From positions 461 through 23,311 of the IMG/VR virus record IMGVR_UViG_3300005253_000083: DNA of 22,851 bases, one strand, 5' to 3'. The translations under genes were made by a program, and so were the position numbers. The DNA is from a virus. This document shows positions 2,158-22,851 of the stretch, one piece after another. How positions within the stretch are numbered: the stretch's first letter is position 1; the number at the start of each line of letters is the position of its first letter. The notes beneath the pieces were generated by a model, which worked only from the letters and a program-made list of their open reading frames with translations, did no database searches and was not told the DNA's origin.

Positions 2158-4995
2158 ATGTGGGCATTATTGTGGTTCCTATTTCTCTATGTTGTTGTAC
2201 CTGTCGGTTTGGGTTATCTCGGGGGAATGCTTTTAGCACCTGATGAACCTAAATCAATAGAACCGGCAGAAGGTACGGCTCAGAGTACCTCGTGGAACCC
2301 CCGCACAACTCAAAGTGAAGGATTGGCACGACCACGGGCCTACGGAAAGAATCTCCATCACGGTAACATTGTATCCAAGTGGACGGACGTGGATGGCAAT
2401 GATCGTGAAATCTTATACATGGTTGTCGAACATGGAGATGGTCCCACTATAGGAATAGGTTCAAATATCGTTTATCTGAACGACCAACCTGCGAGTAACT
2501 TTGGTGACGTGAACATACAAGAACGATTGGGTACGATGGACCAGACTGTGATGACCGGGTTTGAGAAAACCAAGTTGCAGTATAATATTGGAACTGAATT
2601 GGTTTACAATGAGGCTCAGACGTTCACTACCCCTAATGACTTTTTTGATGATATTGAATATATGGTGAGTTTCCCCAACGGGATATATAAGCGTCAAAAG
2701 GATGGCGACCGAAGATCAGCCCGTGTTGATTTACAAGTTCGGGTCCGGCCTGTGGGTGGAGCATGGAGTGATGAATCACCCCCTTCATTCGACCCTTACA
2801 ACACCGTAGAGCCGCTCTACTTCAATTTTAAGTTGTCCGATTATATGACCATCACCAAAGGTGTCCAGTATGAAATTGAGTTTACAAAGACAACCGTAGG
2901 TGGTGATCGGTACACCACTACCATGTCCTTGAGAAGCGTTCGGGAAATAGTTAATGTAGCTTTTGCCAGACCAGGCAAAGCACTAATTGGAATTAAAGCT
3001 GTTGCCACCGCTCAGTTGAGTGGTAATATTGATGTTAAGGTTATTAGAGAAGATAGAATTGTTAATGTCTTCAACGGGGCAACATGGAGTCTGGAATATT
3101 CCAACAACAGGGCCTGGGTAGCGTGGGACATTCTCACACAACCATCCATCTCAGGTAACGGCGGTGGTACGCCTTACGCTATCGAGCGATATGATGGGAT
3201 TGATCCGGCCTATATGGACGTGAATTTCTTTTATGCCTGGTCGTTGTTCGTTGAGGAAGAAATCTTAGACGGTTACGGGGGCACCGAAGCTCGTGCGGCT
3301 TGCAATATAATCGTTGACCAGTTCACAGATACATACTCGTTAGCCCAAAAAATTGCAACAGTGGGTCGGGCAAACATTTATTGGGCTGGGGACAAATTAA
3401 CCGGGTGGATCGACACTGTCGTCACAACACCCATAGACCTGGTCACGATGGACTCGATAATATTCAAGTCTTGGAAGAACAATTGGGCCGTCGTTTCTGA
3501 ATTAGTGGGGGTGGTTGAGATACTTTATCAAGATTCCCTACAGGGATATGAGAAAACCCCGGCAGAGTGGTCAAATGAAGATGCCGGGGGCTTCCGAAAT
3601 ATCTCCTCTTTGGAAGGAACGGGCATCAAGACTCGGGGGCCTGCGGTTCACTACGCCAAATATCTAATCACCCGTAATGAACTTATCAGAAACACAAATG
3701 AATTCAAAGTGGCCAAGGATGGATTTCGCTATTCTCTGGGCGACGTAATACGACTTCAATCTCGACCTGCTAATTGGGGCAAAGCATACCGCGTTATGTC
3801 TTCTACCGCCGACACCATCACGGTTGATCGTGATGTGACTGGCGACGTGACTGCCGGGGATGTCCTACATATCAGGAGTTATGATACTATTGCTGAACAG
3901 GTCATTACCGATACTTATGAAGTGGACTCCGTAGCAGGCAGTGTAATCACGGCGACCGTTGCTTGGGACGTAACACCTGTTAAAGGAAATCTGGTGGCTA
4001 CAGGCTCGGCAGGAGATGTGAAGCTGCGAAGAATAATCAAGTTACAAGCCACTACAGACAACTTCTTCAAGGTCACTGTCGAAACATACGACGCGAATTT
4101 GTTTAACGCAGATGATATTGATCCTAGTAATCCCAATGTGAATTATATCTGGCCAGGTGCTATACCGGGCATAGGCGATCCAGTTACGCGTGCCGACTTA
4201 GACGATCTTGTGGCCCAAATACTTCCTCCGCAACCAGATATTAACGTCCCGTGGCCTAGCAACCTCACATGGGCGGGGAGTGGAGGAGATACAGTAACCT
4301 GGTCTAAGACCGATGCAGATGATGACATCACGTTCCGATATGCTGGCACCACAAATATAATTGCTGCAGATTCAACAACAGATACTTATATTTATTGGAA
4401 TCCGTCAAGCCCAACAGTATTCTTAACTACCAATCTATTATCGACGGCTACATCGGCTGGTAACTGGTTGATGGCAATAAATGAAGCTGGTGTAGTATCA
4501 ACCCCTAACCCCCATCAAGTGATGCACGCTGGACTCTTGCAGGCAGGGACAATCACCGCAGCGTTTGCACAAATAGCTGATGCCGCAATTGTGACCGCGA
4601 AGATAAAAGACTTGGCAGTGGAGACACTGAAGATAAAAGATAACGCGGTTAACATCCCGGTTGGTGCCTATACAGAGAGCAACATAAATATTGTTACTGA
4701 TACAACTGTTCAGCAAATATCCATCACAACTGTTGGGGCATTTGTCTCTATTTGGTTTGGGGCAGTGGGCTACAATAATGGTGGGGCAACCAGTTACTCT
4801 GTGAAAATAGTGAGAGACACCACCACCATATATACTTCAGGGAGTGTCCCTTTCATTGCTGGGTCACCTTTTTCTTCTTTAATTACAGATTCCCCAGGAT
4901 CAGGTGCTCATACCTATTATCTAAAATTCACGAGAAATGCTGGTGACGCTTATGTTCGGAATCGATCTATGGTAGTCATGGAGGTTATAAAATGA
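2158..4995 (+). CDS. Tail tip attachment / host-specificity protein J-like
   Basis: 945 residues (lambda gpJ is 1132). The start is preceded by AGGAG at good spacing. The N-terminus has a hydrophobic stretch (residues ~1-27, LLWFLFLYVVVPVGLGYLGG) and then a Pro/Gly-containing block with RPRAYGKNLHHGNIV, the short 'proposed path' segment typical of J/TipJ proteins. The middle (~70-650) is consistent with hub domains. Residues ~780-830 carry TITAAFAQIADAAIVTAKIK, a stalk motif common in J C-termini. The final ~120 residues are probably a small beta-domain for receptor contact. From about 4300 the DNA becomes visibly more AT-rich, as expected for a swapped receptor-binding end. Its stop overlaps the next start (ATGA). 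Confidence 0.85.
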   Translation: MWALLWFLFLYVVVPVGLGYLGGMLLAPDEPKSIEPAEGTAQSTSWNPRTTQSEGLARPRAYGKNLHHGNIVSKWTDVDGNDREILYMVVEHGDGPTIGIGSNIVYLNDQPASNFGDVNIQERLGTMDQTVMTGFEKTKLQYNIGTELVYNEAQTFTTPNDFFDDIEYMVSFPNGIYKRQKDGDRRSARVDLQVRVRPVGGAWSDESPPSFDPYNTVEPLYFNFKLSDYMTITKGVQYEIEFTKTTVGGDRYTTTMSLRSVREIVNVAFARPGKALIGIKAVATAQLSGNIDVKVIREDRIVNVFNGATWSLEYSNNRAWVAWDILTQPSISGNGGGTPYAIERYDGIDPAYMDVNFFYAWSLFVEEEILDGYGGTEARAACNIIVDQFTDTYSLAQKIATVGRANIYWAGDKLTGWIDTVVTTPIDLVTMDSIIFKSWKNNWAVVSELVGVVEILYQDSLQGYEKTPAEWSNEDAGGFRNISSLEGTGIKTRGPAVHYAKYLITRNELIRNTNEFKVAKDGFRYSLGDVIRLQSRPANWGKAYRVMSSTADTITVDRDVTGDVTAGDVLHIRSYDTIAEQVITDTYEVDSVAGSVITATVAWDVTPVKGNLVATGSAGDVKLRRIIKLQATTDNFFKVTVETYDANLFNADDIDPSNPNVNYIWPGAIPGIGDPVTRADLDDLVAQILPPQPDINVPWPSNLTWAGSGGDTVTWSKTDADDDITFRYAGTTNIIAADSTTDTYIYWNPSSPTVFLTTNLLSTATSAGNWLMAINEAGVVSTPNPHQVMHAGLLQAGTITAAFAQIADAAIVTAKIKDLAVETLKIKDNAVNIPVGAYTESNINIVTDTTVQQISITTVGAFVSIWFGAVGYNNGGATSYSVKIVRDTTTIYTSGSVPFIAGSPFSSLITDSPGSGAHTYYLKFTRNAGDAYVRNRSMVVMEVIK

Positions 4996-5684: not shown

Positions 5685-5876
5685 ATGGGTAATTTATTTA
5701 CGACAGGCCAAATTGCAGATGTGTTAAAGGAGCCACCTGACAGAATAATATATATCATTCGGCGAGACCGGATCAAGCCTGTTGACCGGATTGGTATATA
5801 TCGGCTTTTCAGTGCTATACAGGTGACTGAAATCAGGAAAGCGATGTACAACATCAGAATCCACAGACCAAGATAA
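5685..5876 (+). CDS. Small helix-turn-helix protein, MerR/excisionase-like (63 aa)
   Basis: AAGGAG precedes the ATG. The sequence reads as a compact winged-helix unit: LFTTGQIADVLKEPPDRIIYIIRRDRIKPV (written here across residues 4-33) pairs an N-terminal 'tool-box' helix, as in MerR/Xis-type proteins, with a basic recognition region, and IYRLFSAIQVTEIRKAM completes the wing and last helix. Such proteins act as transcription or recombination-directionality factors. No integrase is present in the window, so a regulatory role in the following small-gene/replication cluster seems more likely than excision. Target and partner are unknown. Confidence 0.7.
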   Translation: MGNLFTTGQIADVLKEPPDRIIYIIRRDRIKPVDRIGIYRLFSAIQVTEIRKAMYNIRIHRPR

Positions 5877-5887
5877 GGAGTCCTATA

Positions 5888-6013
5888 ATGACATCCACAC
5901 CGACACCATTACCTAAAAAGCCAGATAATTACACAGTGACTGAAATCCTCGTTGTCATAGTCGTCCTCTTCATCTTAGCGGCGATTATAATCCCTCAGTT
6001 TACCGAAGTATAA
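5888..6013 (+). CDS. Prepilin-N-terminus-like micro-protein (41 aa)
   Basis: A short ORF with a strong ribosome site (AAGGAG at 5875-5880, 7 nt before ATG). Residues 1-14 are polar with two Lys (K10, K11). Residue 15 onward reads YTVTEILVVIVVLFILAA, then IIIPQF, closely resembling the start of mature type IV pilins and type II secretion pseudopilins (FTLIE then a hydrophobic helix ending in AAIxIPxF). Counting Y15 as +1, the conserved Glu is at +5 (E19). The usual -1 Gly is Asn (N14) here, so processing by a prepilin peptidase is uncertain. The ORF stops right after the hydrophobic helix, with no pilin head domain. Role unknown; decoy, pilus interference or a plain membrane peptide are all possible. 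Confidence 0.7.
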   Translation: MTSTPTPLPKKPDNYTVTEILVVIVVLFILAAIIIPQFTEV

Positions 6014-6025
6014 GGAGCCCTTATA

Positions 6026-6283
6026 ATGGCAAATAATCACCGATCAGACAACCTGCCCGACACCAGAGGCATCTTATCAGGCCGTAGTAAACTCTCAGAA
6101 GAAGAGGTACTGGAGATTCGCCTCTTGTATGAGGTTGGGTCGTACACTCAACGTCAGCTTGCCCGTCTCTATGGTGTAACCCAAAAAATGATATGGGCCA
6201 TTGTCAACAAAAGAGCATGGGCACACCTGTGGGACGATTATGTTGAACCTGCGTGGCATTCGAGAAAGAAGGGGGCTGTATGA
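6026..6283 (+). CDS. Helix-turn-helix DNA-binding protein (85 aa)
   Basis: AAGGAG at the upstream stop (TAAGGAG, 6011-6017) serves this ATG. Residues ~22-66 (SKLSEEEVLEIRLLYEVG, TQRQLARLYGVTQKMIWAIV, NKRAW) form the HTH seen in small phage proteins and in domains attached to HNH endonucleases: a 'K-L-S/T-E-E' helix, 'Y-T-Q-R-Q-L-A' helix and a recognition helix after 'GVTQ'. No nuclease domain follows, so this is a stand-alone DNA-binding protein. The spacer before it (TAAGGAG-CCCT-TATAATG) nearly repeats the one before the previous gene. The stop overlaps the next start (ATGA). Confidence 0.75.
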   Translation: MANNHRSDNLPDTRGILSGRSKLSEEEVLEIRLLYEVGSYTQRQLARLYGVTQKMIWAIVNKRAWAHLWDDYVEPAWHSRKKGAV

Positions 6284-6390: not shown

Positions 6391-8306
6391 TGATAACTAA
6401 AGCATCGAAACAAGAAATAGCCGCCTGGCAGAGGAAATACATCACCCATCCCAGCGTTCCGCACCCATTGGCAGTGGTTCTGGAAGTAGCCGGGGAACAC
6501 AAGAAGCTCGGGGAATACGAGTATAAGGTCATTTGCCCGTGTCACACCGATACAAAACCCAGTCTGTGCCTCAAATACGATGTGAAGACCAAGAATGTCT
6601 TCGCCAACTGCTTTGTCTGCAAAGGTACTGGTATGAGCCAGATCGACCTCTGGAGCGGTTGTCTGAAGGCGTGGGGCCTAACCCTCGATGATCTCATAGA
6701 GGTATCCCCCAGGCACGAGGTCGCGGCGTATCCGTATTTTGACAAAGACGGGAATCTCCTTTATCACAAAGTCCGATATGAACCCAAAGACTTCCGGTAT
6801 CGTCTACCAAATGGTCACCTGGGCCTCAACGGTCAGACCAAGACGCTGTATGCCCTACCAGGGCTCCTCACAGACCCGTTAACCACGGCATACATTGTCG
6901 AGGGTGAGAAAGACGTTGATACACTCACAGCCCGTGGCCGGGTAGCAACGACTGCTGGTGGGCTTAATGACTGGCGTTCCGAGTTCAACCAATACTTTAC
7001 GAACCGTGATGTGGTGATTATCGCAGACAACCACCCGGATGGTCGTGCGTGTGCCGACAACACAGCGGCTGAGTTGTGGCCCGTAGCAGCCAGTGTGAAG
7101 GTCGTAACCCTTCTCGACAAGGATAAGGGCGATACTACCGATTTCTTCGATCAAGGCGGCACTGAGGAGCAGTTCGACCGGATCACAGCCGAGTCACCCA
7201 CATTGACTGAGGCTCCGAAAGTGGTGAAGGTGAAACCAAGCAAAAATAAACAGGTTATTCTTGAGAGGATCAGCGACATGGAACACAAAGAAATACATTG
7301 GCTTTGGCCAAATAGGATACCATCTGGAACATATTCCCTGTTGGTTGGAAACCAGGATGTTGGTAAATCTGTGTTATCCTTGTCTATGGCTGCTGTAGTG
7401 TCTACTGGTGGGTCGTGGCCGGATGCTCCCGACGAAGTGGTTGAGCGGGGGTCTGTAATCATCATGTCAACCGAAGATGATGTCGCCCGGACTATAAAAC
7501 CCAGGTTGCTCGCGGCAGGGGCGGATTGTAGCAAGGTTGTTTACATTAGTTCCTTCACGGAACAGGTAAAAGGTGAGACGGAAACACGGAACCTATTCAA
7601 TTTAACGACAGACCTTGATGTATTGGTTGACGCCATAGACCAATTGGGTGATGTCCGTTTGGTTATTATTGACCCGGTCACAGCATTTGCTGGAGGTAAG
7701 AAAGAGAACTCGAACGCGGAAGTCCGGGCTTATTTGAACCCCCTGATAGCACTTGCAGAGGAGAAAAACCTAACCATCGTGGGGTTGAACCACCTGAACA
7801 AGGACGAAACCAAAGGTGCAACCCACCGCACCCTCGGTTCGGTCGCGTGGACATCTGCGGCACGAGCCGTGTGGCTGGTGGGGTTTGACCCTCAAAATAA
7901 GGATGACGACGAACGTAGACTGTTCTTACCGATCAAAAACAACCTCTCCAAGGTCCGAACTGGGTTGGCATTCACGCTGGTTAACACCCAAGTTTTGATA
8001 AATGGGAATCAACACGGACACCCCGCATGTAAATTTGAGTCGGGTGCGGTCGAAATGTCGGCGGATGATGCGTTGGACACAGAAGGTCGAAAAAGATCGG
8101 CAAAGAAAGTCGATGAGGCTGTCGAATGGCTGGAAGAATTTTTGGAGAATGGACCCCAGATGTCTGTAGATATTTTCGAGGCTGGGAAGCAGAATAGCCT
8201 GTCTAAATACGCCATAACACGCGCCAAAATAAAACTGAGCATAAAACCGATCCAATTCCGGGAATTAGGCAAAATCATCGGTTGGCAATGGGCATTATCA
8301 GCCTAA
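6387..8306 (+). CDS. DNA primase-helicase (CHC2-like zinc site, Toprim, RepA/AAA_25-type ATPase)
   Basis: 639 residues from the ATG at 6387, preferred over the in-frame ATG at 6201 because it has GGAGAG just upstream, shares an ATGA overlap with the preceding ORF and avoids overlap with the HTH gene. Domains in order: zinc site ~50-79 (C50, H53, C75, C78, CPCH...CFVC); Toprim ~168-245 with VEGEKD (171-176) and ADNHPDG; ATPase with Walker A GNQDVGKS (321-328), a STEDD segment (361-365), Walker B VRLVIIDP (~423-430) and GLNHLNK (~466-472); a C-terminal winged-helix-like segment ~560-639. It would prime and unwind phage DNA. It is the only replication enzyme in the window. Confidence 0.9.
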   Translation: MMITKASKQEIAAWQRKYITHPSVPHPLAVVLEVAGEHKKLGEYEYKVICPCHTDTKPSLCLKYDVKTKNVFANCFVCKGTGMSQIDLWSGCLKAWGLTLDDLIEVSPRHEVAAYPYFDKDGNLLYHKVRYEPKDFRYRLPNGHLGLNGQTKTLYALPGLLTDPLTTAYIVEGEKDVDTLTARGRVATTAGGLNDWRSEFNQYFTNRDVVIIADNHPDGRACADNTAAELWPVAASVKVVTLLDKDKGDTTDFFDQGGTEEQFDRITAESPTLTEAPKVVKVKPSKNKQVILERISDMEHKEIHWLWPNRIPSGTYSLLVGNQDVGKSVLSLSMAAVVSTGGSWPDAPDEVVERGSVIIMSTEDDVARTIKPRLLAAGADCSKVVYISSFTEQVKGETETRNLFNLTTDLDVLVDAIDQLGDVRLVIIDPVTAFAGGKKENSNAEVRAYLNPLIALAEEKNLTIVGLNHLNKDETKGATHRTLGSVAWTSAARAVWLVGFDPQNKDDDERRLFLPIKNNLSKVRTGLAFTLVNTQVLINGNQHGHPACKFESGAVEMSADDALDTEGRKRSAKKVDEAVEWLEEFLENGPQMSVDIFEAGKQNSLSKYAITRAKIKLSIKPIQFRELGKIIGWQWALSA

Positions 8307-11294: not shown

Positions 11295-12595
11295 ACGTAA
11301 ACGAAAGATCGAACGCGAAGTTTCAGGAAAGCAAACTATTTCCTACAGCTTCGGTGACGGTCTTCTGGCTCGGCCAGCGTATGCTGCCTCTGGCACACTC
11401 GCCCAGTTGCGACTCGTCCGAAAGGACCCAACAGTTTCTAGTACGGTCTCGTGGGCTCGGAGATGTGTATAAGAGACAGGCTCGCCGCTTGTTGGTGAGT
11501 TCAATCCAGGCGGGGTCGTGGAACATCGAGGCTGACGAGGGCGTACCGGAGGAAATTGTTGAGTATATGGAGCATGTTCTTCCATTGCGGGATTGGCTTG
11601 TTTACAACAGTGTGGCGTTTGGACAAGTGGATTATGGTTGGCAGGGGTTTGAGAAGATATTCAAAGTGCGTGAAGACGGTAGGTTAGTTATTGACAAATT
11701 GAAACCGTTGCTTCACGACATAACAACCATTTTGGTTACACCGAAGGGTATGTTTGACGGCTATCGGCAGAGGCCGCTTTCCGGGGACAAGGTTGACGTG
11801 CCTGCTCGGAAGTGTCTGCATACAGCCTTTGAGGTAGAAGCAGGGAACTTATATGGGGTCCCTCTGCTTGAACACGTAAGAGCCACGATGGATTCATGGA
11901 CAGAGTGCAACGACGGGGCGAAAAGATATGATACAAAACTGGCCGGGTCTCATTGGGTTGTTTACTATCCCCCTGGAACCAGCATCATAGACGATGTGAG
12001 TACGGATAATGGGGAAGTGGCCGCGTTGGTTCTGGCTGCTATGGAAAGTAGCGGCAGTGCCGCGATCCCCACAACTTCGGCAACTGTTCTACAAGAAATT
12101 CTCAATCAATCTATTGCCGATCTGTATGCCTGGAAAGTGGAGTTGATTTCGGAGCAGAAGGGCAAGCAGTCCAGTTTTAATGATCGGTTGAATTATCTCG
12201 ACAAACAAAAGGTCCGAGGTTTGGGCCTGCCCGAGCGAGCTATTCTTGAGGGTAACTTCGGTACAAAAGCCGAATCTGAAATACAAGGCAATTGGGCCAC
12301 TCTTAATCTGGAAGCTACTGATCGAAATATAGCTACAATGTTCAATGTGCAGGTAACTGACCAACTTGTTGAGTTGAACTTCGGGCCTAAAAATGTGGGT
12401 AAGGTGAGGGTAGTCGCCTTGCCGTTGGTTGATGTCCAAGTGACCTTCCTGCGAAAAGTTTATGAAACGTTGTCCGATCAAAATCTTGATGTTGAAGTTC
12501 TTCGCAATCGGCTTGATTTGCCTACAAAGGAAGGCGGAAACCTCACACCAAAACCAGAATCCAATAAATCAGCGGAGGAAAACGATGAAGAGTAA
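11275..12595 (+). CDS. Portal protein (DUF935-like), frame broken by embedded sequencing adapter
   Basis: The portal forms the dodecameric DNA gate of the capsid. It starts at ATG 11275 (GAGAGG upstream; MAKQTHKRKRK) and runs to residue 55 at 11439. Bases 11440-11479 are adapter. The frame resumes at 11480 (ARRLLVSSIQAGSWNIEAD) and continues to the stop at 12593-12595. Without those 40 bases the frame is continuous and gives 426 residues, a normal portal size, with LRLVRKDPTVSARRLL reading smoothly across the join as in DUF935/Mu gp29-like portals. Later blocks include QVDYGWQGFEKIFKV and VPLLEHVRATMDSW. The exact bases lost or duplicated at the join cannot be known from this sequence. Confidence 0.8.
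11438..11479 (+). other. Embedded Illumina Nextera i7-side adapter (assembly artefact)
   Basis: 11446-11460 is GTCTCGTGGGCTCGG and 11461-11479 is the 19-base Tn5 mosaic end AGATGTGTATAAGAGACAG; together they are the Nextera read-2 transposase adapter, 34 of 34 bases. Directly before it, 11438-11445 is CTAGTACG, the i7 index bases of Nextera N702. The order index-adapter-genome is that of a library molecule end, so the genomic fragment begins at 11480. Left of the index the P7 sequence is missing and genomic portal sequence stands instead, so the assembler bridged two fragments. This is not phage DNA. Confidence 0.97.
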
Positions 12596-14493: not shown

Positions 14494-15516
14494 ATGTCAG
14501 TTTTAGATGTCTTCACAGGCAACGCATTCAATGTTACATCATTGACCGATGCCATAAATAAAATCCCCCATAAGCCGGGCAGGATTGGTCAATTGGGCCT
14601 GTTTTCAAACAAGGGCGTGACCAGTCGTTCGGTTATATTGGAGGAACGAGATGGGGTTATACAGTTGCTGGTATCCAAACCTTATGGTGCCCCGGCTGAT
14701 GTCCAAAAACCCCAGGACCGTAGGGCTCGTAACTTCGTCGTTCCCCACTTCCCGTTGGACGATACTGTCCTTGCGGAGGAGGTTCAGGGTATCCGAGCTT
14801 TCGGTAGTCAGTCGGAGACCGAAGGTGTTGCTCAGGTCGTCACTCAAAAGATCGCTTCTATGCGACAATCTCACGAAGTGACTTTAGAGTGGCTTCGGAT
14901 GGGTGCTATTAAGGGCGTAGTGTTCGATGGTGACACCACAACGGTTTTGCATAACCTCTTCAACGAATTTGGGGTTAGCAAACAGGCCGATCAGGATTGG
15001 GATATGCACACCGTTGGTACTGAGCAGGCTCCCAAGTGTACCACCGCGATTCGTTTGATCGAAGAGGCCCTCGGTGCTATGCCTTACGACCATATCCATT
15101 GTCTTATGGGCGATGACGTATGGGATAAGTTTATCGTCAATACCTCTGTCAAGACAGCCTACGAACGTTGGGCCGGTGGACTTGATGGACAGCCTGGGGG
15201 ATTCCTTCGTAGTGATATGCGTCTGGGGTTCTTCTTCGGTGGTATCTATTTCGAGAACTATCGCGGTAAGGTCGGATCGACCAGTTTCGTTGCCGCTACA
15301 GAAGGCCGGGTTTTCCCGGTTGGGGCACCTGGTTTGTTCCAGACCATCAACGCTCCAGCAGATTACATTGAAACCGTGAATACGGTTGGTTTGCCGTTCT
15401 ATGCAAAGCAAGAGCGGATGGCCTTCGATAGGGGTATCAACATCAACACCCAGTCGAACCCGTTAAACATCTGCACTCAGCCTAGAACCCTCATCAGGAT
15501 TTACGGATCGGCTTAA
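14494..15516 (+). CDS. Major capsid protein, lambda gpE-like
   Basis: 340 residues, the usual size of the gpE (Phage_cap_E) family. Typical features: DVFTGNAFNVTSLTDAIN near the start, an FVVPHFPLDD segment (~residues 82-91), AIKGVVFDGD (~147-156), and a C-terminal FYAKQERMAFDRGININTQS region followed by RTLIRIY. It builds the icosahedral shell together with the decoration protein just upstream. AAGGA stands 6 nt before the ATG, behind an A-rich 35-nt leader. Confidence 0.92.
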   Translation: MSVLDVFTGNAFNVTSLTDAINKIPHKPGRIGQLGLFSNKGVTSRSVILEERDGVIQLLVSKPYGAPADVQKPQDRRARNFVVPHFPLDDTVLAEEVQGIRAFGSQSETEGVAQVVTQKIASMRQSHEVTLEWLRMGAIKGVVFDGDTTTVLHNLFNEFGVSKQADQDWDMHTVGTEQAPKCTTAIRLIEEALGAMPYDHIHCLMGDDVWDKFIVNTSVKTAYERWAGGLDGQPGGFLRSDMRLGFFFGGIYFENYRGKVGSTSFVAATEGRVFPVGAPGLFQTINAPADYIETVNTVGLPFYAKQERMAFDRGININTQSNPLNICTQPRTLIRIYGSA

Positions 15517-21376: not shown

Positions 21377-22851
21377 ATGGCTAAGAACTTCTATGGAGCT
21401 TTAGGTTTAACGGGTGGTGTTGACGGCGATCTTGATTTTATAGATGGGGCCGGACTTGCTGATGGTGACGGTGCTTTTGTTGTTACATCAGGAAAGAGTT
21501 ATACTTACACTCTCAATGATTCTTCTGGTGCTTCTGAGTCCATACCCGACGTAATTTCACCTGACACCAATCCAGGCACTAAGCGTTGGATTCTTGTGCC
21601 GCCTGAAACAGTGTTGGCTAGAGTAGCTGGCTCTACTTATTCCACAGTGCAGCACCTTCAGGATATATTTCATTCAGCAGGATGGGTATCGGGTGGTGCA
21701 GTCACAGACGATGGTGATGGTACTATTACAGTTGCTTTAGGCACTGGCCTTATCAGGGCAACTGACACTGCCGTGGCTGAAATATTGTTTATGGACTGGG
21801 CTGCCGAGTCGGGCACCAACGTTGCTGTTGCTGATAACGACATTAGCTATGTTTATGTGGAATACTTCGCTGGTAGTCCGAGAGCGATTGCAACAATAAC
21901 AGAACGCACCGATTTCAATACGAATGTGCTGCTTGCAGTCGTGAGCCGAGAAGGCACTGATATACATATCAATCAGACAGATCAACACACTGTTGGCGAC
22001 CACGCCAATTCCATGATCCGAAGATTGAAGGGAACCATGCCTTATGGCCATGTTTCTGGTGGAATTCTTAGTGAGACTGGTACTAGGAATATTGACCTTA
22101 CTGCCGGATCGTTCTGGCGAGGACTAACACCATTTGCTACGTCCGCCGTGAATACAAGCGGTGCCCCGACGTTTGATTATTATTACAACAATGGTAGCTG
22201 GCAGAAGGTGGCTGCTCAGTCCACCATTCATCAGACTAATTGGAATGACTTCGGAACCGGATTGGACACGCTATCAAATAATAAATATGGCGTTCATTGG
22301 GTTTATCTTCAAGCCGATGATGAACGTGTTTCAGTTGTTTATGGGATAGGTGACTACACATTATCTCAAGCCGAGAACGCACAACCACCTTCAGCATTAC
22401 CACAACATCTTCAAATGGTGGGAATACTTGCAGGCAAGATCATCATCAAAGAAAGTGCCGTTGCTTTTACTCAAGTAGAGTCTGCATTCCAAACAAAGTT
22501 TGTAGGTGCTGTTGCCACCGAACATAATAATACATCAGGACTACAGGGTGGAACCACAGATGAATATTATCATCTTACAGAGGCCGAACATACGGGGGTT
22601 GGTGGTGGTGACGAGAAAGTCGGAATAGATGCAGCAGCAGCACCCGGCTATCTTGGTGTTGCTTCCGGTGACGGGGTACTGCGAACCGGAGCAGGAATGA
22701 CCTATACAGATGGTGGAGATTTTGTCACCTTAAAACCGGATTTGGTTGGGGACAACACGGCTGGTAGAGTGATTAGATCGGTTCGCTTAACTATTCAGAA
22801 TGGCACGAATGCAAATACTTTGAAATGCAGTCTGGTAGATACATGGAATGG
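21377..22851 (+). CDS. Tail fibre protein, 5' part (copy B, 3' end outside window)
   Basis: GGAG (21367-21370) precedes the ATG; the frame stays open to the window edge (491 codons). N-terminal residues ~1-75 (MAKNFYGALGLTGGVDGDLD, PDTNPGTKRWILVPPE) look like a tail-attachment domain. The middle is beta-rich with WGxx-type repeats absent, and residues ~405-420 have SGLQGGTTDEYYHLTEAEH, a motif common in phage fibre stalks. From residue ~301 it parallels the fibre part that opens the window, and its last 56 bases are identical to 737-792. If joined there, it would give an intact 590-residue protein ending at 1090. Confidence 0.8.
   Translation, partial: MAKNFYGALGLTGGVDGDLDFIDGAGLADGDGAFVVTSGKSYTYTLNDSSGASESIPDVISPDTNPGTKRWILVPPETVLARVAGSTYSTVQHLQDIFHSAGWVSGGAVTDDGDGTITVALGTGLIRATDTAVAEILFMDWAAESGTNVAVADNDISYVYVEYFAGSPRAIATITERTDFNTNVLLAVVSREGTDIHINQTDQHTVGDHANSMIRRLKGTMPYGHVSGGILSETGTRNIDLTAGSFWRGLTPFATSAVNTSGAPTFDYYYNNGSWQKVAAQSTIHQTNWNDFGTGLDTLSNNKYGVHWVYLQADDERVSVVYGIGDYTLSQAENAQPPSALPQHLQMVGILAGKIIIKESAVAFTQVESAFQTKFVGAVATEHNNTSGLQGGTTDEYYHLTEAEHTGVGGGDEKVGIDAAAAPGYLGVASGDGVLRTGAGMTYTDGGDFVTLKPDLVGDNTAGRVIRSVRLTIQNGTNANTLKCSLVDTWN
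22796..22851 (+). repeat. 56-bp exact repeat of 737-792 at the right edge
   Basis: From CAGAATGGCACG to the last base the sequence is identical to 737-792 and in the same codon phase; the base before it differs (T versus C). Upstream similarity continues at a lower level. This is either the conserved 3' domain of two fibre paralogues or the overlap expected where a circular genome was cut. Confidence 0.9.

Follow-up and report, generated by a model that had tools for sequence, protein, structure and literature searches.

Phage proteins that shut off type IV pili are known to act by binding the pilus motor or the platform protein. PfsE of the filamentous phage Pf4 is a 30-residue inner-membrane protein with its N-terminus inside, which binds PilC and blocks pili (PMC8764522). 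Aqs1 and Tip, from the Pseudomonas phages DMS3 and D3112, inhibit type IV pili by binding the cytoplasmic ATPase PilB (PMC8764522), and they are not pilin mimics. Headless pilins are also already known, in Geobacter PilA and the Tad pilins, as are phage proteins with a pilin-like N-terminus, which are found in six PHROGs.

In type IV pilins and pseudopilins, a hydrophilic leader of 6-26 residues precedes the N-terminal helix (PMC4471445). The N-terminal motif alone suffices for insertion of a pilin into the inner membrane with the leader inside, and the Gly at -1 is "absolutely critical" for cleavage whereas Glu5 is not (PMC4471445). Neighbouring subunits are linked by a salt bridge from Glu5 of one to the free Phe1 amine of the other, and the stretch of helix from Gly14 to Pro22 melts as a subunit is incorporated into the filament (PMC5059446).

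The window, the whole stretch of 22,851 nucleotides analysed here, is part of a linear 23.3-kb IMG/VR record and comes from an unclassified tailed bacteriophage. Its siphovirus-like gene set includes a J-like tail tip (2158-4995), a primase-helicase with an AAA_25 domain that marks the replication module (6393-8306, plus strand; AAA_25 E=7.2e-34, phrog_239 E=3e-33), a terminase, a Mu-like portal, a Mu-like protease, the major capsid protein (major capsid E, 14494-15516), a tape measure and fibres. The window contains no Rfam RNA or tRNA.

The gene pil41 (5888-6013, plus strand), recognised from its ORF translation and its pilin similarity, encodes a pilin-helix microprotein of 41 residues, MTSTPTPLPKKPDNYTVTEILVVIVVLFILAAIIIPQFTEV. 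It begins 11 nt after the stop of the upstream gene, with a Shine-Dalgarno sequence AAGGAG (5875-5880, plus strand) 7 nt 5' of its ATG, and its TAA stop overlaps the AAGGAG of the downstream gene p85 (6011-6017, plus strand), a tight packing with no trace of a lost head domain. The ORF looks real; codon usage is uninformative either way and cannot decide, and the ORF is judged to be coding because it combines a protein-level match with these translation signals. The original prediction of a 41-residue ORF with a strong ribosome site is exact.

The pil41 leader of 14 residues (5888-5929, plus strand) falls within the range for pilins (PMC4471445) and is net positive, with K10 and K11 versus D13. 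Its last residue, at -1, is Asn14 (codon 5927-5929), a position occupied in pilins by Gly and rarely by Ala or Ser. The following 27 residues form a pilin-type helix (5930-6010, plus strand) according to sequence comparison and single-sequence AF2 prediction. In pilin numbering, Y15 is +1, T16 is +2, E19 is +5 (5942-5944), F28 is +14 (5969-5971) and P36 is +22 (5993-5995). The hydrophobic tract, about 21 residues in class III signal peptides, spans residues 20-35 and is followed by P36-Q37-F38 and, at the end, V41 and the stop. Thr+2, Glu+5, Val+9, Leu+16, Ala17-Ala18 (within ILAA) and Pro+22 are kept, and the small residue (Gly) expected at +14 is a Phe. The Lys-containing leader, Y15, E19, hydrophobic helix and PQF ending had been predicted exactly as they are found. 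AlphaFold without an alignment gives one helix over residues 14-40 (mean pLDDT 83.7), a result that is compatible with this anatomy and does not discriminate.

A pilin-helix profile built from 79 pilin N-termini gives pil41 30.3 bits, versus 13.2 bits for the best of 20,000 shuffles of its 27 helix residues and 9.5 bits for the best other ORF among ~36,600 stop-to-stop ORFs from ~185 other phage and prophage loci. By this measure the pilin resemblance lies far beyond chance or composition. All 18 matches at E<=10 in a PDB sequence search are pilins or pseudopilins, the top match being a head-poor Geobacter pilin, and the three alignments printed place Y15 on mature residue 1, which is the pilin register. 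Almost all matches from the first three bacterial genomes searched are pilin-sized frames, and those inspected have the pilin motif. The five best NCBIfam models are all pilin or pseudopilin models, GspG first (E=1.8e-4), but the Pfam N_methyl score is 8.3 bits versus a curated cut-off of 21.2. The GspG score is likewise 21.5 bits versus 88.85, a cut-off that a headless protein could hardly reach on a model of 134 positions. Because Gly-1, a small +14 residue and the curated cut-offs are all missing, pil41 is not classed among the type IV pilins, and it may still function like one, or like PfsE. At the level of sequence, its anatomy and these matches establish pilin ancestry or mimicry.

How far pil41 departs from pilins was assessed by scanning IMG/VR with a back-translated pilin helix, in which positions -1, +4, +11, +14 and +20 were left free and either Phe or Tyr was accepted at +1. 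The comparison set holds at least 119 stretches and at least 126 pilin-type helices; many of its contigs may be prophages or host-derived, so that it describes pilins generally more than phage pilins, and several residues kept in pil41 were demanded by the pattern, so that their frequency in the set is uninformative. Among the 126 helices listed, the -1 residue is Gly in 107, Ala in 17, Ser in 1 and Asn in 1, the last being in a 180-residue protein (L258) and the sole Asn-1 helix among the matches listed. The +1 residue, Tyr in pil41, is Phe in all 126. The headless pilin-type helix with an uncleavable-looking Asn at -1, the core of the original prediction, is supported, and a second departure can be added to it, since the residue at +14 is Gly, Ala, Ser, Cys or Thr in 126/126 of the helices listed and Phe in pil41. 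From +1 to the stop pil41 has 27 residues; the shortest of the 110 complete frames listed has 41 (L231), and the next-shortest have 53, 63 and 69. None of the matches listed is as short as pil41 or combines departures at -1 and +14 as it does. The strict headless pattern ILAAIxIPQFxxx-stop has no match in IMG/VR, and neither the viral contigs nor the literature searched yielded a phage with a lone uncleavable pilin helix.

The best PDB matches are Geobacter-type PilA proteins (Geopilin domain 1 protein; PDB 2m7g, 6vk9, 7tgg and 9egp; E=0.0011-0.013), which resemble pil41 in having no globular domain, the same register, Glu5, Pro22 and ILAAI.IPQF. Geobacter PilA, however, is a 61-residue mature protein with Gly-1 and Gly14 that is processed and polymerised, whereas pil41 has 27 residues, Asn-1 and Phe14. 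Tad/Flp pilins (PMC11067988) are also headless and helical, with 45 mature residues, a 14-residue leader and Glu at mature position 5, but they are processed and have a conserved Glu-Tyr pair, where pil41 has Glu-Ile and a type IVa/GspG-like helix. The six PHROGs that match pil41 (phrog_11263, 10597, 13280, 27437, 11596 and 3433; E 5e-4 to 1.4e-2) also match genuine pilin helices taken from viral contigs. Phrog_3433 is annotated "pilin" and the other five have no assigned function. They span 59-187 positions, of which the N-terminal ~27 match pil41, and every one continues past the helix into a C-terminal part. PfsE is likewise a tiny phage inner-membrane protein with its N-terminus inside that acts in pilus block and superinfection exclusion, a role that is only proposed for pil41; PilC binding is demonstrated for PfsE only. 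PfsE has a YXWGW motif (PMC8764522) and is not described as pilin-like, whereas pil41 resembles a pilin helix and has no Trp among its 41 residues. Without the YXWGW motif, pil41 was rejected as a PfsE homologue.

The residues needed for insertion and docking are kept in pil41, and those needed for cleavage and melting are changed, at positions (-1 and +14) that the search pattern left free. We tentatively suggest that pil41 serves the phage as an accessory protein, imitating a type IV pilin or type II secretion pseudopilin of the host as it occurs in the inner membrane and disturbing the machinery concerned, a reading that is possible and that we favour with some reserve. We infer its topology, lack of cleavage, target and benefit as follows. 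The peptide would insert by itself, N-terminus in and C-terminus out, and would escape the prepilin peptidase and thus retain its leader. Having kept Glu+5, it could attach to a host subunit through that subunit's free N-terminal amine; alternatively, its target may be the platform protein (PilC/GspF) or the peptidase, which it would occupy. With no free amine at +1 and no Gly14 hinge, pil41 would allow no further subunit to be added and filament growth would stall, and the Phe at +14 may make it resist melting there. A more specific version of this proposal, which we consider unlikely as it stands, is chain termination proper: the helix, uncleavable and headless, would dock through Glu+5 at the base of the growing pilus or pseudopilus and, offering neither free amine nor hinge, bring assembly to a stop. 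Such a terminator would be a substrate mimic of the pilin itself, a strategy unlike the binding of PilB or PilC. The phage may benefit by excluding pilus-using phages or by remodelling the envelope during infection.

A somewhat unlikely alternative is that the pilin helix has been reused as a plain membrane anchor or small effector, such as a holin, an antiholin, a membrane-depolarising or another inner-membrane peptide, and that its pilin features reflect ancestry only. The single, strongly hydrophobic transmembrane segment (Kyte-Doolittle 3.24 over 19 residues) fits such a peptide, none of the scanned proteins was recognised as an endolysin or holin, and p59, a small membrane protein that is XhlA-like on a weak phrog_937 match (E=0.15), is encoded just upstream. 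However, a plain transmembrane anchor would seldom start its helix with residues such as Glu+5 and Thr+2, which are typical of pilins, the pilin match covers the whole helix including PQF, and a holin needs no pilin origin.

It is quite unlikely that pil41 is a functionless, decaying fragment of an acquired pilin gene. The missing head, the changes at -1 and +14 and the absence from relatives would all be expected of such a fragment, Asn-1 and Phe+14 could equally be drift after loss of function, and codon usage offers no guidance. The start, Shine-Dalgarno sequence and stop are nevertheless intact, the stop overlaps the Shine-Dalgarno sequence of the next gene, no head-domain remnant is seen in the 12 nt before p85, and junk is rarely kept in dense phage gene clusters.

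That pil41 is a genuine, very short minor pilin, a phage-encoded auxiliary subunit that enters and alters host filaments, is less probable still. Phage families with pilin N-termini exist (the six PHROGs), a 47-residue headless pilin-like ORF is present in another viral contig (L231), and head-poor pilins can form filaments, as do Geobacter PilA with 61 residues (PMC5059446) and the Tad pilin with 45 (PMC11067988). Asn at -1, however, should block processing (PMC4471445), and no other short viral example among the matches listed departs at both -1 and +14. A chance likeness of a hydrophobic peptide to a pilin helix, to which the missed Pfam and NCBIfam cut-offs might point, is highly improbable, since none of the 20,000 shuffles or ~36,600 other ORFs comes near the pil41 score and every PDB match is a pilin or pseudopilin, in register.

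If the proposed interference with host pilin or pseudopilin assembly is correct, a copy of the pilin helix would be a new way to jam type IV filaments. It would provide a natural inhibitor scaffold of 27 residues for the machines common to pili, secretion and DNA uptake, and a clean test of Glu5 and the free N-terminus as drivers of filament growth. Even as no more than an accessory membrane peptide with pilin ancestry, pil41 would illustrate how far a captured pilin can shrink.

The gene upstream of pil41, p63 (5685-5876, plus strand), encodes a small, excisionase-like DNA-binding protein of 63 residues that resembles HTH_17 (Pfam E=0.019, below cut-off), and this protein has no relative in phages. 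The downstream gene, p85 (6026-6283, plus strand), encodes an HTH protein of 85 residues (phrog_20467 E=7.2e-8; HTH_7 E=2.4e-4; L002, L003) and is followed by the primase-helicase. The p85 protein, which lacks a nuclease domain, resembles the C-terminal tail of HNH endonucleases from phages and is possibly a domesticated DNA-binding remnant. Used as bait, it recovers only HNH-endonuclease tails and no relatives of this phage. Two flanking HTH genes had been predicted; both neighbours do match HTH families, but at sub-threshold values. An early cluster, adjoining the primase-helicase, is plausible. The genes pil41 and p85 share a reading frame, and a pilin-HTH fusion split by one stop was considered and rejected, since p85 starts with a Shine-Dalgarno sequence and an ATG of its own and since it would make no sense for an HTH to lie on the outer side of the inner membrane. 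Near-identical flanks, ATAAGGAG-YCC-TATAATG, precede pil41 (5870-5890) and p85 (6008-6028), and this motif puts TATAAT over the start codon. The duplicated translation-start flanks look as if pil41 may have arrived as a module.

Relatives whose capsid is 71-86% identical are present (L004-L009), most of them fragments that do not extend to the pil41 region. One of them, L007, extended as L094 (L094/G001), matches through p94 and p59 and then diverges, with no HTH genes or pilin in the 617 nt past p59, and L335 has none in the ~7 kb past its J gene. Conservation in related phages, the test attached to the original prediction, thus failed, as the gene is absent from the two nearest relatives that continue past the J gene. 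For this reason pil41 looks accessory within its phage group, as far as can be seen, although records very close to the window may have escaped these searches and absence falls short of proof. Purifying selection, whether on E19 or on the changed residues, is not apparent from these data. No copy is present in the other related viral loci examined, and no pilin-like ORF occurs in prophage regions with a related capsid among 80 bacterial genome loci. The DNA of the three-gene stretch has no match in phages, the primase as bait finds no relative in viral contigs, and tblastn of the 41-mer gives no match in phages, a result given no weight because the low-complexity filter probably masks the helix. 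One capsid relative belongs to the Desulfuromonadales, and among 297 genomes of its phylum no recent host donor was recognised, the top pilins being 44-57% identical over ~30 residues. The capsid itself is 44-45% identical to the capsid of Wolbachia phage WO and 44% identical to that of a prophage in a Desulfuromonadales MAG.

Both contig ends carry paralogous tail-fibre genes (1-1090 and 21377-22849) that are ~64-80% identical in their overlap. In the relative L007, matches to both end fibre genes lie together in a single stretch flanked by p133b and p351. Either circular permutation of the genome or a break in the assembly within a variable fibre region could account for this. Within the portal ORF, positions 11446-11479 read GTCTCGTGGGCTCGGAGATGTGTATAAGAGACAG, which we take to be the Nextera (Tn5) read-2 transposase adapter. 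Translation of the adapter region accounts for two odd peptides in this ORF, LLYTSPSPRD and SYTHLRAHET, and a chimeric join may lie between the terminase and the portal in this contig.

The headless ORF in L231 (4813-4956, minus strand) has Gly-1 and Gly14 and lies in a 345-kb viral contig. A rare Thr at +4 is common to pil41, this ORF and a short bacterial pilin-like ORF in L204. Four further viral contigs (L226, L293, L213 and L316) encode small proteins that consist of a pilin N-terminus and a short tail with a C..GY/F.F....QI..NG.G(V/I).C-like ending, and these may constitute a family, as yet unnamed, of short phage pilin-like proteins.
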